This document shows positions 7,624-19,875 of a stretch of 23,728 nucleotides of DNA, one piece after another. The translations under genes were made by a program, and so were the position numbers. Under the pieces are notes generated by a model. The model did no database searches. It was given only the letters and a program-made list of their open reading frames with translations, and had not been told where the DNA came from. The DNA is from a virus, in IMG/VR virus record IMGVR_UViG_3300043823_000274, positions 1-23,728 of that record; one strand, given 5' to 3'. Position 1 is the stretch's first letter, and each line of letters opens with the position of its first letter.

Positions 7624-7653
7624 ACTATACCATAATTTTTAATAATGTGTTAA
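7624..7653 (-). promoter_or_regulatory. Predicted promoter of the minus-strand operon
   Basis: Read on the minus strand there is TTAACA (7653-7648), an 18-base spacer and TATAGT (7629-7624). Transcription would begin near 7617, inside or beside the palindrome, and give a leader of about 40 bases before the SSB-like gene. Confidence 0.5.
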
Positions 7654-7675
7654 AGTATCCAAAAGGAGGAAAAGT

Positions 7676-7876
7676 ATGAACTTAAAGCAATATTTCAAAG
7701 ATGAGCCATTTGGCGCCAAACGTGAAATGGCTGATTATTTAGGCGTTTCGCCTACATGGATTAGCTTAATCATGCACAAAAAGCGCAAAGTTAGCCCACA
7801 ATTAGCTAAAAAAATAGAAAAAGCCACACAAGGCTTAGTTACAGCAAAAGAGTTAAGACCTGATATTTTTGGTTAA
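7676..7876 (+). CDS. Small Cro/YdaS-like helix-turn-helix regulator (66 aa)
   Basis: The protein has 66 residues and consists mainly of one helix-turn-helix: REMADYLGVSPTWISLIMHK (about 16-35) contains the turn and recognition helix, followed by KVSPQLAKKIEKATQG as the supporting helix. YdaS/Cro-type proteins act as dimeric DNA-binding regulators. ATG 7676 has a strong GGAGG site. It is the first rightward gene and faces the SSB operon across a palindrome, the arrangement of an autoregulating switch. No second repressor or integrase is visible, so this is more likely an early-gene timer than a lysogeny switch. It could also control the genes downstream. Confidence 0.75.
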   Translation: MNLKQYFKDEPFGAKREMADYLGVSPTWISLIMHKKRKVSPQLAKKIEKATQGLVTAKELRPDIFG

Positions 7877-11760: not shown

Positions 11761-12014
11761 GCACTCAGACCGCCAAACTGGTCGCTCACTCGCGGCTGCG
11801 GTTTGGGGAAAGCTCTACAGTGGGAAAGACGTTGAGATAGAGCTAGGGGTGGCGAAGGCAGCGCCCCAACGTCGAACGGCTACCGAGGTGTCAGGCTCCG
11901 ACTCGACATAAAGGCTCCCCAGAGGCTACGGTCTCTGGGAAGGCTGAGGAATCCCACCAACCCAACAGACTAACTAGGATTAACCGTTAAGTACTCTTAC
12001 TGATATATTTTTTT
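11761..12014 (+). ncRNA. Structured RNA 2: hairpins and a pseudoknot, unknown family
   Basis: No reading frame of note is present but many helices are. A hairpin spans 11773-11806 (CCAAACTG / CGGTTTGG plus an inner stem). AGCTCTA (11811-11817) pairs with TAGAGCT (11838-11844), while GACGTTG (11828-11834) in its loop pairs with CAACGTC (11867-11873), a pseudoknot. A small hairpin GGCG (11851-11854) / CGCC (11862-11865) sits between. CCCAGAGGC (11918-11926) pairs with GTCTCTGGG (11931-11939) around a TACG loop. GTGGGA (11820-11825) may pair with TCCCAC (11952-11957). A T8 run lies at 12007-12014. The function is unknown. Confidence 0.55.
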
Positions 12015-12037
12015 TAAATTTTAACTTGTTATTAGAG

Positions 12038-12043
12038 TATACT
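12038..12043 (+). promoter_or_regulatory. -10-like TATACT upstream of the oxygenase gene
   Basis: TATACT lies 26 bases before the oxygenase ATG, in a very AT-rich stretch after the T8 run that may end the structured RNA. I see no good -35 at 16-18 bases, so this promoter is tentative. Confidence 0.35.
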
Positions 12044-12069
12044 GTGAACAGTTTATTTTGGAGAAAGTT

Positions 12070-12678
12070 ATGGAAACACTAGACGAGTCAGTCCTTTTCC
12101 CTTCTACGGTATACGCGATCAAGAAGCCTGAGTTTCTTGAAGTGGTTAGTAAGGTCTCGGCGCAGTATATGCAAGCGTATAAGCCCAACGAACCTCAGAT
12201 GACAGTTATGACTGGCGGTTTTGCGCATGAACCTGAAGTCAAGGACTTTGCTCAATACGTTTCCCAGACCGCATGGAATATCCTCAAGTCACAAGGATTC
12301 GCTATGGATAATCTTGTGACCTACTTCATGGAAATGTGGACACAGGAACATAACAATCACAGCCACATGGAGTACCACGTTCACGGACTGGGCGCTCAGA
12401 TATCGGCGTTTTACTTTCTGGAAACTCCACCCGAAGGCTGTCGGTTAATTCTCCACGACCCTCGTCCGGCCAAAGTGATTACGAACTTACCAGAGAAGGA
12501 CTTTAGCAAGGTTAGCGCGGCATCCACCCAGATCGTTTTTACCCCAAATGCAGGTACGTTGTTCTTTGCCCCTGCGTGGTTGCCGCACAGCTTCAGCAAA
12601 AATATGGATGAAAAGCCAACGGTATTTGTCCACATGAATTTAGGGGTTGTTGCCGCACCGCAAGCCGAGGTTATATGA
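12070..12678 (+). CDS. 2OG-Fe(II)-dependent oxygenase
   Basis: I chose ATG 12070 (202 residues), preceded by GGAG; an in-frame TTG at 12058 would overlap that site. Family marks are EYHVHG (101-106, His 103 and His 105 as first metal ligand region), ISAFYFLETP (111-120), LILHDPRP (127-133) and GTLFFAPAWLPHSF (162-175) with His 173 as the distal iron ligand, then FVHMN. This matches the phage 2OG-Fe(II) oxygenase group found often in aquatic phages. The enzymes use 2-oxoglutarate and oxygen to hydroxylate a substrate; the phage substrate is unknown (protein or nucleic acid). It is the first gene after the structured RNA region and is coupled to the next gene by ATGA. Confidence 0.8.
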   Translation: METLDESVLFPSTVYAIKKPEFLEVVSKVSAQYMQAYKPNEPQMTVMTGGFAHEPEVKDFAQYVSQTAWNILKSQGFAMDNLVTYFMEMWTQEHNNHSHMEYHVHGLGAQISAFYFLETPPEGCRLILHDPRPAKVITNLPEKDFSKVSAASTQIVFTPNAGTLFFAPAWLPHSFSKNMDEKPTVFVHMNLGVVAAPQAEVI

Positions 12679-12899: not shown

Positions 12900-12924
12900 C
12901 AACTCTTAAACTTCCAGTTATAGT
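12896..12924 (+). promoter_or_regulatory. Sigma-70-type promoter P1, upstream of the resolvase
   Basis: TTGACA (12896-12901), spacer ACTCTTAAACTTCCAGT (17 bases) and TATAGT (12919-12924) form a near-consensus promoter. The spacer is shared with three other promoters in the window (near 16431, 17963 and 19401). Transcription would start near 12931. Confidence 0.85.
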
Positions 12925-16424: not shown

Positions 16425-16453
16425 GACATTAGTCTTTAACTAGTTGTTATACT
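16425..16453 (+). promoter_or_regulatory. Promoter P4 of the shared-spacer family
   Basis: Spacer AGTCTTTAACTAGTTGT (16431-16447) and TATACT (16448-16453) match the family; the -35 is a poor GACATT. The -35 weakness suggests help from a protein that reads the spacer. Transcription would start near 16460. Confidence 0.65.
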
Positions 16454-16459
16454 CTTATC

Positions 16460-16476
16460 ACCTCGACGTTGAGGGT
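16460..16476 (+). promoter_or_regulatory. 5'-terminal leader hairpin, copy 1
   Basis: ACCTCGACGTTGAGGGT folds with CCTC / GAGG plus a G-U pair, and starts at the expected first base of P4 RNA. The same hairpin occurs at 19430-19446 with one compensatory pair change (T-A to G-C). Confidence 0.65.
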
Positions 16477-16494
16477 TATTTACGGAGCATGACG

Positions 16495-16788
16495 ATGAAC
16501 GCAGTTTTACAGTTTCCCGAAACCGCCAACCACATCATTGACCAATATGTGGTGATCGACCAAAAGATTAAGGCGTTACAAGAACAAGCCGACATCATTA
16601 AAGACGAACTCAAAAAACGATACGGCAAAGGTACGCATCGCGGATTTCAGTATGGAATCAAAATAGACGAATCAACATCAACAACCTTCCTCAAAGACAA
16701 ACTTTTCGAGGACTTGGGTCTTAGTAAAGACGAGCAAAAGTCTTATCACACGAGCAAATCAATATTAAAATTAACCGTAGTAATTTAA
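16495..16788 (+). CDS. Small hypothetical protein behind P4 (97 aa)
   Basis: I chose ATG 16495, seven bases after GGAG. The ATG at 16489 would be only one base from that site. The product begins MNAVLQFPETANHIIDQY and has a coiled-coil-like helix (IDQKIKALQEQADIIKDELKKRYG) followed by a beta/alpha region. It is not recognised. It has its own promoter and is followed by a tetraloop hairpin. Confidence 0.65.
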   Translation: MNAVLQFPETANHIIDQYVVIDQKIKALQEQADIIKDELKKRYGKGTHRGFQYGIKIDESTSTTFLKDKLFEDLGLSKDEQKSYHTSKSILKLTVVI

Positions 16789-16793
16789 CTATT

Positions 16794-16815
16794 GGGGCGG
16801 TACGCCGCCCCTTTT
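16794..16815 (+). terminator. GC-rich TACG-loop hairpin between small genes
   Basis: GGGGCGG (16794-16800) pairs perfectly with CCGCCCC (16805-16811) around TACG, a UNCG-type loop, and is followed by only four T. The next ribosome site follows directly. It may be a weak terminator or an mRNA-stabilising stem. The identical stem occurs at 17423-17440 with a GCAA loop. Confidence 0.65.
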
Positions 16816-16827
16816 AAGGAGAGCGTT

Positions 16828-17136
16828 ATGGATACTCGAATTGTTGGTTACTTTATTTTTGATGAATACCGCGACATTCGGTTTGAATATGAAACAGAAA
16901 CAGAAATGAATTTAGCTTTTGACCATGTTGTCGTAGATTCGTTTTTTACCGCGATGCAGGACGGCAGCAAATTTGACCAGTCTTGGATTAAAAAAGGTCA
17001 AGTTAGAGAGTGGCACATTGATGGAGATTGGGAAGATATTGATGAGCCGTATGGCACGGATGATGACTATGATTTCGAGCCAACATTTGACCCGATTGAA
17101 GATGAACGCAGTTTTTATGCTAAAAAACGCTACTAA
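16828..17136 (+). CDS. Acidic hypothetical protein (102 aa)
   Basis: ATG 16828 is preceded by AAGGAGA. The product begins MDTRIVGYFIFDEYRDIRF and becomes extremely acidic in its C-terminal half, with many Asp and Glu around GDWEDIDEPYGTDDDYDFEP. Strongly acidic small phage proteins are sometimes DNA mimics that block host DNA-binding enzymes. That is a possibility only; no family match is known to me. Confidence 0.6.
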   Translation: MDTRIVGYFIFDEYRDIRFEYETETEMNLAFDHVVVDSFFTAMQDGSKFDQSWIKKGQVREWHIDGDWEDIDEPYGTDDDYDFEPTFDPIEDERSFYAKKRY

Positions 17137-17146
17137 GGAGACGATG

Positions 17147-17413
17147 ATGCAAATTGTAAAAGTTGAAATTAGAAAACACGGCAGTTATGAAGATTACCCA
17201 AACCAGATCGCGGGTATTGTTCAGCTGCAAAGCGATCAGGGCAAGCAAGAGGTTAAGCTATCAGCGAGTGTGGTTAGCGCCATCTTCGCGGTTCTTAAAA
17301 ACGATTTAATTGCGAATAGCAAGGCTCTTGCTGACCAAGTGGAGTCTGCTGCCAACCATGCGGTTCATGCTCCTCTATTGGAAGATCAGAGCGTCATAGC
17401 TGAATCCTTTTAG
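17147..17413 (+). CDS. Small hypothetical protein (88 aa)
   Basis: I chose ATG 17147, six bases after AAGGAG; the ATG at 17144 is closer than usual. The product begins MQIVKVEIRKHGSYEDYPNQ with beta strands, then a helix SASVVSAIFAVLKNDLIANSKALADQVES. There is no recognised motif. It is followed by a GCAA-loop hairpin before the next gene. Confidence 0.6.
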   Translation: MQIVKVEIRKHGSYEDYPNQIAGIVQLQSDQGKQEVKLSASVVSAIFAVLKNDLIANSKALADQVESAANHAVHAPLLEDQSVIAESF

Positions 17414-17422
17414 GATATAGTC

Positions 17423-17445
17423 GGGGCGGGCAACCGCCCCCTTTT
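17423..17445 (+). terminator. GC-rich GCAA-loop hairpin between small genes
   Basis: GGGGCGG (17423-17429) pairs with CCGCCCC (17434-17440) around GCAA, a GNRA loop, followed by C and four T, then a GGAGG ribosome site. The same 7-bp stem is seen at 16794-16811 with a TACG loop. Confidence 0.65.
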
Positions 17446-17454
17446 GGAGGACTT

Positions 17455-17655
17455 ATGGAAATCGATTTTATTTACACCCCCATCGGCACGGACATCACGG
17501 TTCGTTGGAAAAAGGAAGGTTGGAAGCCGCCTTCTGAACAGGCTGAGATTCAAGCCAAGTGGTCGAAGTTTAAAGAAGCGGGCTTAAGACGTTTAGAAGG
17601 TCAGACCGACCCCAAGCCCCAAAGGCAAACCCTTGAGATCAGGAGAGTGAAATGA
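17455..17655 (+). CDS. Small basic hypothetical protein (66 aa)
   Basis: ATG 17455 follows GGAGG. The product begins MEIDFIYTPIGTDITVRWKKEGWKPPSE and then has a charged helix and a basic tail (QRQTLEIRRVK). No motif is recognised. Its stop overlaps the next start (ATGA). Confidence 0.6.
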   Translation: MEIDFIYTPIGTDITVRWKKEGWKPPSEQAEIQAKWSKFKEAGLRRLEGQTDPKPQRQTLEIRRVK

Positions 17656-17960
17656 ACGTACAAGAATTTGACGATGATCACAAACGATATTTGGAGATTG
17701 TATTGGAGTTGGCAGACCCTTACAGTAAACTGGTATCTGATTTAATAAAGAAAGAGAAAATCCCAGTAGTAGTTATGGCGTTGCAACATTTGGGCATTAA
17801 ATTCATAAGCGGCGCTCTCTTGGTTTTAAACCAAGAACAACAAGATGCCAGAAAAATTTTTGATTTAATAGGCCATGCAATATGGTCTGATTATCTGGAC
17901 TTGAGGGAAGATCAAAAAAATGCTTTAGATAAAATGGCTAATTTACGCAGGGGACATTGA
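17652..17960 (+). CDS. Hypothetical protein (102 aa)
   Basis: ATG 17652 overlaps the upstream stop. The product is helical and charged, with a hydrophobic run in the middle (IPVVVMALQHLGIKFISGALLVL, about residues 37-59) that could be one buried or membrane-associated helix. The end of the gene contains the -35 of promoter P2. It is not recognised. Confidence 0.6.
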   Translation: MNVQEFDDDHKRYLEIVLELADPYSKLVSDLIKKEKIPVVVMALQHLGIKFISGALLVLNQEQQDARKIFDLIGHAIWSDYLDLREDQKNALDKMANLRRGH

Positions 17961-17985
17961 CAAGTCTTAAACTATCAGTTAAAAT
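17957..17985 (+). promoter_or_regulatory. Promoter P2 of the shared-spacer family
   Basis: TTGACA (17957-17962), spacer AGTCTTAAACTATCAGT (17 bases) and TAAAAT (17980-17985) lie 25 bases before the next start codon. The spacer matches P1 (12902), P3 (19401) and P4 (16431). Confidence 0.8.
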
Positions 17986-18009
17986 TTAAACTCATATCAA
18001 GGGGGTTTT

Positions 18010-18240
18010 ATGTCAGATTCAAAAAAACAGGCTTTTGAGGTCAATTATGATGGCGATTTTTTTATTGTAGTCGCTGAATACCAATTTTTGGGCGATGTTC
18101 TGGGCTATCAGGTCTTCGTTGAATCCGTCGGTAAAACGTACAAGGTAGACGAACACTTCCCTCCTGCTTTGCTTTCAGAGCTTTTTATAGACCATTTGGA
18201 AGGGATAATCGCTATGAAATTGGAGGACGCACATGATTGA
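18010..18240 (+). CDS. Small hypothetical protein behind P2 (76 aa)
   Basis: ATG 18010 follows GGGGG and promoter P2. The product is beta-rich and acidic (NYDGDFFIVVAEYQFLGD, YQVFVESVGKTYKVDE), ending in a helix. No family is recognised. It overlaps the next gene by eight bases. Confidence 0.6.
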   Translation: MSDSKKQAFEVNYDGDFFIVVAEYQFLGDVLGYQVFVESVGKTYKVDEHFPPALLSELFIDHLEGIIAMKLEDAHD

Positions 18241-18379
18241 TCAAGCCCTGTTATGGCTCAAGGACGCTTGGGAATGGCAAGCGCAATTGAGTTGGTCACA
18301 AGCTTTGCTGATTATTTTGTGCTTCTTGTGGCTCATTGGTTGGGTTTATTACGCGAGTCGAGGAGAGAATGATGTTTAG
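18233..18379 (+). CDS. Small single-pass membrane protein (48 aa)
   Basis: The frame from ATG 18233 gives 48 residues: an amphipathic Trp-rich N-terminus (LLWLKDAWEWQAQLSW) followed by one membrane helix (QALLIILCFLWLIGWVYY) and a short charged tail. The start overlaps the previous gene and the stop overlaps the next start, both as expected in this tightly packed operon. A holin-like or accessory lysis role is conceivable but unsupported by neighbours. Confidence 0.6.
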   Translation: MIDQALLWLKDAWEWQAQLSWSQALLIILCFLWLIGWVYYASRGENDV

Positions 18380-18608
18380 GACACTAGTTATGGATGAGGG
18401 CGCAGAGGACGCACATATTGAGGAGAAATGTTCATGGTCAACTTTATTCGCCGCAATAATTGGGGCTTTTATAGCCGGCTTCGTGATTGGCGCCATGGTA
18501 GAAATGTTCAACGTTCGGGCAGACCTGTCAGTGATGGGAGCGACGCGAGTAGACAGCCAAGCGTGGCGTTGCACCGAGATCAAGAGCAGCTCGACAGGGA
18601 TCAATTAA
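18372..18608 (+). CDS. Small membrane protein (78 aa) overlapping the next gene
   Basis: ATG 18372 (or 18369) follows GAGGAG. The product has an acidic N-terminus (DEGAEDAHIEEK), one strong Gly/Ala-rich membrane helix (LFAAIIGAFIAGFVIGAMVEM, split here: about residues 31-51) and a hydrophilic C-terminus. From 18428 on, the same DNA is read in another frame by the next gene. The membrane helix supports this frame as real. It resembles, but does not match, the nested spanin arrangement: no lipoprotein box is seen. Confidence 0.55.
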   Translation: MFRTLVMDEGAEDAHIEEKCSWSTLFAAIIGAFIAGFVIGAMVEMFNVRADLSVMGATRVDSQAWRCTEIKSSSTGIN

Positions 18609-18640
18609 AGATGCTGCACAGCATCAAGGAAGTCGAATGA
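18428..18640 (+). CDS. Basic protein encoded out of frame within the previous gene (70 aa)
   Basis: ATG 18428 has its own GAGGAG site, and its stop overlaps the next start (ATGA), which is the usual junction in this operon. The product is basic at the N-terminus (MFMVNFIRRNNWGFYSRLR) and ends in a charged helix (LHRDQEQLDRDQLKMLHSIK). It has no family match. About 180 bases are shared with the membrane protein in a different frame. Confidence 0.5.
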   Translation: MFMVNFIRRNNWGFYSRLRDWRHGRNVQRSGRPVSDGSDASRQPSVALHRDQEQLDRDQLKMLHSIKEVE

Positions 18641-18924
18641 AAAGCAAACAAACAGCAGATGCGCCTAAAAAGCCCGTAAAGCGAACAACGGTCAAGAAAG
18701 CTACCAAGGTAGCCCCCAAGCCGGTCAAAGCCGCCCCTAAAGCATCTGGCGCGGTCTATACGATGCCTGTGGAGGTCAAAGAGTGGATCGAAAAGGCAAA
18801 TTCAACAATCAATCACTTAAAAGGCAAAGTTGAGCGGCTTGAAGATGAAAACGCAAAGCTCAAGGCTTGGAAAATATGGGCTGAGAACCGAATTTTGCAG
18901 AGCAGCAAAGAGGAGCAGCGGTAG
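18637..18924 (+). CDS. Lys/Ala/Pro-rich tail plus coiled coil (95 aa)
   Basis: ATG 18637 overlaps the preceding stop. Residues about 1-40 are rich in Lys, Ala and Pro, like the tails of histone H1-type proteins, and could bind DNA. Residues about 45-90 form a probable coiled coil (NSTINHLKGKVERLEDENAKL). A DNA-bridging or scaffold role is possible; the family is not recognised. Confidence 0.6.
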   Translation: MKSKQTADAPKKPVKRTTVKKATKVAPKPVKAAPKASGAVYTMPVEVKEWIEKANSTINHLKGKVERLEDENAKLKAWKIWAENRILQSSKEEQR

Positions 18925-18934
18925 TACCCAAATG

Positions 18935-18979
18935 CCCCTATTTACGGTAGTAATTAGGGGATAACATTGTGTAACAAAA
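18935..18979 (+). repeat. Intergenic hairpin repeat, copy A
   Basis: CCCCTA (18935-18940) pairs with TAGGGG (18955-18960), then ATAACATT and GTAACAA follow. The same order of elements occurs at 19338-19377. Confidence 0.6.
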
Positions 18980-19005
18980 TAATTTAATTTTTAAGGAGAA
19001 CAATT

Positions 19006-19308
19006 ATGCACAACCAAACCATAGGGACTAAATTTGTATTTCAAAAAGGGGTTACTCCGGCACATATTGTTGCTATAGTGTCTGACTATTCGAATGATGA
19101 AAAATGTGAACGAATTTCAATAATTATAAAATACGATAAGAACGTTGAAGACCACATCAATCATGCCCGCGCCGCTAAAACATTGGCAACTGAATTGAAT
19201 TGGAAGGGTAAGTGGATTGGGGGCGATTTAGGCAGATTCTCTAAATATGATTATTTGTGGGTGAACATTACAGAGTTAGGCGAAGATGAAACTTTTGAAG
19301 TAGTCTAA
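19006..19308 (+). CDS. Hypothetical protein between the hairpin repeats (100 aa)
   Basis: ATG 19006 follows AAGGAG. The product begins MHNQTIGTKFVFQKGVTPAH and looks alpha/beta: strands near VAIVSDYS and RISIIIKYD, a helix ARAAKTLATELNWKG, and a final strand. It is a single gene between two related intergenic hairpins, so it may be a separate cassette. It is not recognised. Confidence 0.6.
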   Translation: MHNQTIGTKFVFQKGVTPAHIVAIVSDYSNDEKCERISIIIKYDKNVEDHINHARAAKTLATELNWKGKWIGGDLGRFSKYDYLWVNITELGEDETFEVV

Positions 19309-19337
19309 GTATAAATTGCGAAGGAACAGCGGGAATA

Positions 19338-19377
19338 CCCCTATTGCGCTAATAAGTAGGGATAACATTTCGTTACA
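19338..19377 (+). repeat. Intergenic hairpin repeat, copy B
   Basis: CCCTA (19339-19343) pairs with TAGGG (19357-19361), followed by ATAACATT and GTTACAA as in copy A. It lies directly upstream of promoter P3. Confidence 0.6.
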
Positions 19378-19394
19378 ATTTGTTTGAAAATAGG

Positions 19395-19423
19395 CACACA
19401 ACTCTTTAACTTTGAGTTATTAT
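19395..19423 (+). promoter_or_regulatory. Promoter P3 of the shared-spacer family
   Basis: Spacer ACTCTTTAACTTTGAGT (19401-19417) and TATTAT (19418-19423) match the family, with a poor -35 (CACACA). Transcription would start near 19430. Confidence 0.65.
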
Positions 19424-19429
19424 GTCTCT

Positions 19430-19446
19430 ACCGCGATGTTGCGGGT
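19430..19446 (+). promoter_or_regulatory. 5'-terminal leader hairpin, copy 2
   Basis: ACCGCGATGTTGCGGGT is the partner of 16460-16476. It lies at exactly the same distance from its -10 box (seven bases to the first stem base). The fourth pair is G-C here and T-A there. Confidence 0.65.
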
Positions 19447-19467
19447 TTATTATTGGAGCGATTGAAA

Positions 19468-19875
19468 ATGAAATCAGAACATATTCATGCGTTACGACAA
19501 TATCGTCATGTAGCAAAAGGCTTGCTGCTCTGTGATCCAATTTGGCTGATCGATGATGGCGGTGAAGTGAGCGCGACTACAATAGAAAACATGATGCATT
19601 TTGCGGAAGTGCCCGCCCCACATGGGGTAGCACCGCGCTATGCGATTGAAACACGCGAATGCACAGCTCACGCTGACTGCACAGTATACCGCCTCGTGGA
19701 GTACGCGCATGGCAAAGTTCGATTGATCGAAGAGTACTCTAATCTAGCGGCAGCAGAGGCCGATCGGGACGCGCTATTAATTGCTGACATACTCGAAAGT
19801 TTAGAAAACCAATTCGGGGTGCTTTATTCTCAAGAAGACGCTGACGAATGGATGAGCGAGGAGGGCATCAAATGA
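19468..19875 (+). CDS. Hypothetical protein behind P3 (135 aa)
   Basis: I chose ATG 19468, nine bases after GGAG; an upstream in-frame ATG at 19384 lies before the promoter start and would not be in P3 RNA. The product begins MKSEHIHALRQYRHVAKGLLL and is alpha/beta with an acidic C-terminal helix (ADILESLENQFGVLYSQEDADEW). It is not recognised. It overlaps the next gene by ATGA. Confidence 0.6.
   Translation: MKSEHIHALRQYRHVAKGLLLCDPIWLIDDGGEVSATTIENMMHFAEVPAPHGVAPRYAIETRECTAHADCTVYRLVEYAHGKVRLIEEYSNLAAAEADRDALLIADILESLENQFGVLYSQEDADEWMSEEGIK

Follow-up and report, generated by a model that had tools for sequence, protein, structure and literature searches.

The 23.7-kb virus record IMGVR_UViG_3300043823_000274, analysed over its whole length and called the window here, carries phage replication genes, DNA methyltransferases and a large terminase, and at three of its promoters the predicted transcript would open with a short hairpin. 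Copy 1, on the plus strand, comprises the promoter core TTTAACTAGTTGTTATACT (16435-16453), with an extended -10 element TGTTATACT and the -10 hexamer TATACT at 16448-16453, the hairpin A CCTC GACGTT GAGG GT (16460-16476; stem 16461-16464 paired with 16471-16474, loop 16465-16470) and, recognised by sequence, a Shine-Dalgarno motif GGAG (16484-16487), followed by a gene for 97 amino acids at 16495-16788 with a second ATG at 16489. Copy 2, on the same strand, has the core TTTAACTTTGAGTTATTAT (19405-19423; hexamer TATTAT at 19418-19423), the hairpin A CCGC GATGTT GCGG GT (19430-19446; stem 19431-19434 paired with 19441-19444) and a GGAG read in the same way (19455-19458), in front of a gene for 135 amino acids without family match (19468-19875). 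Copy 3 lies on the minus strand, where TATAGT (7624-7629), CCCTTT and ACGGCAATGTTGCCGT (7617-7602), which folds as ACGGC AATGTT GCCGT with 5-6 bp, precede the gene 7578-6952, a phrog_862 member of 208 amino acids with no assigned function. The layout is common to the three copies: -10 hexamer, six bases, an A, a stem of 4-5 bp, a loop of 6 nt, the other arm, a short stretch and the Shine-Dalgarno motif.

Copies 1 and 2 had been singled out in a first-pass annotation as two mRNAs beginning with the same hairpin. Both 17-mers are present at the stated places. Exactly three positions distinguish them, and two of these form a stem pair that is T-A in copy 1 and G-C in copy 2; the observation is confirmed, but the number was too low, since the window has three copies and its relatives about 100 distinct leaders. 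Copy 3, which that reading did not report, has one further stem pair altered relative to copies 1 and 2, with complementarity kept. A degenerate search of the window with up to three mismatches returned no copy of the 17-mer beyond copies 1 and 2, the chance expectation being 0.14. Copy 2 has an AUG in its loop, which was considered as the start of a leader peptide; the idea was dropped because ATG is absent from other loops (ACG in copy 1).

The claim that the hairpin starts seven bases after the -10 box needs a small shift: its A is the seventh base after the hexamer in copies 1 and 2, six bases lying between, and is the usual +1, but the first paired base is the C that follows. The fixed six-base spacing strongly suggests that transcription starts at this A, as do two leaderless relatives (L153 at 12611 and L182 at 4163), in which the same promoter is followed by six bases and then by ATG with no leader; the A of this ATG is the same base as the first A of the hairpin elsewhere, which gives indirect but independent support for this +1.

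Relatives were reached by a terminase search, which brought up MW202545.1 (a phage genome from a spring, complete at 57 kb), and by a helicase search, which led to one related IMG/VR contig. MW202545.1 carries ACCACGATGTTGTGGGT at the same place and, among cultured or annotated phages, is the only one with the element. A pattern that was anchored on the -10 box and allowed any bases at the variable pair retrieved ten viral stretches, in all of which this pair is complementary (A-T); in matches lacking a -10 box at the right distance, complementarity at this pair was the exception, found in a minority. An unanchored search with ACCNCGAYGTTGNGGGT in viral contigs gave, among the matches listed, mostly chance hits, and three matches in bacterial genomes (Flavobacterium, a metagenome-assembled genome titled Legionella, and Thermococcus) were judged to be chance from their unrelated spread; of these only the Legionella-titled one was read, and no Shine-Dalgarno motif with a start codon was seen in it. 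Among 369 genomes from the bacterial class to which the Legionella-titled record belongs, none matched the promoter pattern, so that no prophage and no host emerged from the search. A peptide-pattern search for relatives of the gene 16495-16788 found none, its orthologues coming up behind the promoter instead. An earlier description of the element was not found in the open-access papers searched by words, a search that could miss one published elsewhere.

The promoters themselves form a class. Their motif, TNTAAYTNNNNGTTANANT, recurs in every whole record of 13 relatives, with few or no matches in the reversed control. Scanning the region for sigma-70 promoters in general did no better than shuffles. 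A palindrome of the type TCTAAC-N4-5-GTTAGA spans the spacer and the -10 box of the class (for example at 16435-16453, 19405-19423, 12906-12924 and 17967-17985) and, judged by its sequence, is likely to be an operator; a repressor-like helix-turn-helix (HTH) gene at 7676-7876 adjoins one of its copies.

The register of the hairpin can be examined without recourse to its sequence. When viral contigs were scanned again, now for the promoter with AC at +1/+2, a Watson-Crick stem of at least 4 bp starts 6-8 nt past the -10 box in 79 of 98 distinct promoters, and at exactly 7 in 63, against 0-8 stems at each of the control offsets 0-6 and 9-39; what is counted at offset 8 is either one of these stems entered at its second pair or a stem displaced by one base, and several of the unpaired remainder contain one G-U pair (CGGTC/GATCG). 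When 14 records were searched with the promoter only, a hairpin arm was present 6-8 nt past the -10 box in 33 of 58 matches, a total in which some palindromes appear twice through mirror reading, compared with 1.4 (maximum 5) in shuffles. Counts from IMG/VR include related sequences, and the safeguard against this is a tree count, available for one gene only, that of copy 3.

Pairing is maintained by covariation. In 64 distinct aligned rows, 95.3% of the cells are paired against 76.0 in shuffles, a figure that leans slightly high because three non-pairing rows and near-duplicates were left out of a set picked by promoter, AC/GC start and ribosome site; double changes number 63 against 15.5, the covariation score is 0.602 against 0.213, and sliding the register by one base lowers pairing to 26-47%. 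Of 85 leaders whose selection rested on the promoter and the ribosome site and took no account of pairing, 82 are paired, with eleven stems, 59 loop sequences and loops of 4-8 nt; the stem, the loop sequence and the loop length of the hairpin vary, while its place and its pairing do not. A real 5′ RNA hairpin with compensatory changes, as first proposed, has passed every test made here, and in the further copies, where a loss of pairing would have spoken against it, the pairing is kept.

The gene of copy 3 allowed the hairpin to be approached from the protein. In 51 loci retrieved solely by protein homology, the hairpin lies directly upstream in 40, and in four others a small inserted open reading frame intervenes, with the promoter and hairpin ahead of it, some 130 nt upstream; a different coding sequence precedes four more, where no promoter was found within 330 nt, and the remainder are two truncated loci and one distant homologue (43% identity). 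In the 40 loci and the window the outer four pairs are complementary throughout (37 all Watson-Crick, four with one G-U), and the minimum numbers of pair-identity changes on the protein tree are 0, 1, 5 and 6 at pairs 1 to 4, that is, at least 12 in total with pairing kept. The test is 40/51 rather than 41/41, because the 40 loci were called by the presence of the stem. Distant homologues of the gene (L241-L244), inspected by eye, have no such hairpin within the 160 nt before it. A number of leaders of the phrog_862 gene contain, after the first hairpin, a second one that likewise varies while remaining paired (GTCCTACGGGAC, GGTCGAATTGACC, TGTCGAAGTAGACA; L246, L248-L251, L256, L261, L272, L281, L287-L290 and others), and in L263, L282 and L284 it contains the Shine-Dalgarno motif.

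The presence of the hairpin depends on the gene. In front of the copy 1 gene it occurs in nine of nine phages, the window and eight related ones with orthologues, with five different stems, whereas it is found in none of four for the oxygenase gene and none of four for the HTH gene, which have the same promoter class; its presence therefore belongs to the gene, and its sequence does not. In the window the promoters without hairpin, all on the plus strand, are the divergent one at 7638-7656 for the HTH gene (phrog_35), that at 12020-12038 before the 2OG-Fe(II) oxygenase gene (12058-12678), whose orthologues likewise have none, and those at 12906-12924 and 17967-17985. After the stop codon of the copy 1 gene there is a strong hairpin, GGGGCGGTACGCCGCCCC plus TTTT (16794-16811, plus strand), either a terminator or a 3′ stabiliser, and in relatives a very stable hairpin, often GGGGCTTCGGCCCC and without a T run, comes after this gene and immediately ahead of the next one (after 44350- in G001, 11936- in G004, 1367- in G007 and 57417- in W01); it is perhaps a guard that matches the one at the 5′ end.

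Place, pairing, covariation, freedom of sequence and gene-specific presence are established, and a 5′-terminal stem-loop built into a phage promoter class, blocking RppH and 5′-end-dependent RNase E, is considered the likely explanation; it would probably be a cap-like guard that slows message decay from the front end for most genes of one promoter class. A host-type RNA polymerase would use the extended -10 promoter and start at the A that lies beyond the six-base gap; the stretch from +2 to about +15 would fold at once into a hairpin of 4-6 bp, with no more than one 5′ nucleotide left unpaired; the Shine-Dalgarno motif would remain outside, at a computed median of 8 nt beyond the hairpin; and RppH and 5′-end-dependent RNase E would be unable to engage the closed end. 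We infer both the protection from these enzymes and the gain in expression, and a slowing of decay is the best fit because pairing is kept, sequence is free, at most one 5′ base is unpaired, and there are precedents. With +1 taken as the base 7 nt after the -10 box, the stem starts at +2, within the 0-2 nt or so from the 5′ end at which stabilising stem-loops lie, and, as in these, pairing counts above sequence, the 5′ nucleotides are computed to be inaccessible and the ribosome site is outside. Computed at 37 C, the probability of finding all three leading nucleotides unpaired has a median of 0.016, against 0.72 in shuffled leaders and 0.74 at 11 hairpin-less promoters of the same phages, and is 0.047, 0.006 and 0.003 for copies 1, 2 and 3 of the window. 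RppH requires two, preferably three, unpaired 5′ nucleotides and favours a purine at position 2 (PMC7144940), which in these leaders is a paired C; 5′ structures stabilise mRNA through hindrance of RppH and RNase E (PMC3997798), and the 5′ stem-loop of T7 gene 10 gave 1.5-3-fold higher expression and a raised mRNA level in the betaproteobacterium Cupriavidus necator (PMC6146998).

Several observations weigh against this explanation. Inactivation of RppH in E. coli touches only about 10% of mRNAs (PMC3997798), part of the promoter class does without the hairpin, the stems are short, and the folding energy of the whole leader is not better than in shuffles for several leaders, including copies 1 and 2. 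In addition, pure protection does not explain the frequent GGT(TTA) just past the stem or the bias of the loop start towards AA or GA. These last features might be expected of a recognition site, through which a phage or host RNA-binding protein would control all these messages together, whether as a translational regulator or, with the hairpin in the part of boxB, as an N-like antiterminator; loops often start with AAY or GAY, the hairpin stands on several operons of one phage, and HK022 put and lambda boxB are precedents. Such a site is possible but rather unlikely, since a specific binder normally fixes the loop, and here loops (59 kinds, 4-8 nt) and stems (11 kinds) vary even inside one phage, in contrast to the fixed, protein-recognised loop of boxB and nut; no boxA (CGCTCTTTA-like) was seen beside the hairpin when the listed leaders were looked through by eye, a systematic scan not having been made.

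The hairpin could also be a translation element that keeps the leader off the ribosome site or provides a standby site, raising initiation rather than stability. The Shine-Dalgarno motif lies outside the hairpin, often past a U/A-rich GGTTTA stretch, in C. necator A/U-rich leaders and a stem-loop both help (PMC6146998), and the Shine-Dalgarno motif of L263, L282 and L284 is held in the second hairpin. Nevertheless, the distance from hairpin to Shine-Dalgarno motif ranges from 2 to 32 nt while that to the -10 box is fixed, so that the element is measured from the 5′ end of the RNA and not from the ribosome site, and a role in translation is judged unlikely. A nascent hairpin that aids promoter escape, or passage of early pause or termination sites, would account for the constant distance to the -10 box, but there is no fixed partner sequence and the oxygenase and HTH promoters of the same class manage without it, which makes a transcription-level role very improbable. 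A DNA operator, in which the inverted repeat from +2 to +15 would bind a dimeric repressor or activator with RNA pairing incidental, is hardly credible, for although the separate spacer palindrome is operator-like and has the HTH gene beside one copy, the half-sites here are fixed neither in sequence nor in spacing, which shifts by several bp and would hardly be tolerable for a dimer, and G-U replaces G-C in several lineages (CGGTC/GATCG).

Other RNA features were noted in these genomes. A search of the whole window against Rfam 15 at gathering score returned only RF02932 (Betaproteobacteria-1 RNA), elsewhere than the hairpins, at 11771-11888 on the plus strand; the same RNA scores above that threshold in L131 (6168-6285) and L124 (5829-5946). 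The family is named after bacteria, yet in these phages it looks like a conserved viral RNA of the lineage, and a betaproteobacterial host is only suggested by its occurrence in the window and two relatives. Rfam 15 covariance models run on copies 1 and 3 gave no match at E up to 5. The window also has two similar intergenic stretches (18928-18982 and 19333-19383; CCCCTATT...AATTAGGGGATAACATT and ACCCCTATT...AAGTAGGGATAACATT), to which no function was assigned.

In the T7 gene 10 mRNA a stem-loop comes first, and behind it lie a U/A-rich stretch and the Shine-Dalgarno motif; the leaders described here resemble it as phage messages that open with a stem-loop; T7, however, uses its own polymerase and one stem sequence, whereas here the promoters are of the host -10 type and many stems are kept by covariation. 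Lambda boxB and HK022 put RNA are likewise short hairpins in phage leaders, in their case early ones, and they keep their loop or primary sequence, both of which are free here. The 5′-terminal stabilising stem-loops of E. coli ompA and papA (Emory, Bouvet and Belasco 1992, as cited in PMC3997798) also lie at or near the 5′ end with the Shine-Dalgarno motif free and are thought to block RppH and RNase E, but they belong to single host genes, unlike the one promoter class, whole phage family and one fixed register considered here, for which an effect on half-life is predicted. The stabilising leader hairpin of T4 gene 32 (as cited in PMC8948821) is again in a phage 5′ leader, but it is of the CUUCGG type, serves one gene and does not recur throughout a family of phages at a constant +2 register.

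In summary, 5′ stem-loops that protect single bacterial messages are known, and the version that is promoter-coupled and extends across a phage family appears to be new; it also provides a natural library of minimal 5′ hairpins usable in expression work. A wider role as a structural cap, by which phage messages would resist while 5′-end-dependent host decay continues or accelerates, so that the mRNA pool shifts to the phage without a virus-coded capping enzyme and the hairpin-less genes of the class (repressor-like HTH, oxygenase) are kept short-lived, is speculative and rather doubtful. A whole, little-known phage lineage appears to have made a 5′ hairpin part of a promoter class and to have preserved it in many genes through compensatory change, and this offers a testable prediction of how phage messages may escape decay by RppH and RNase E.
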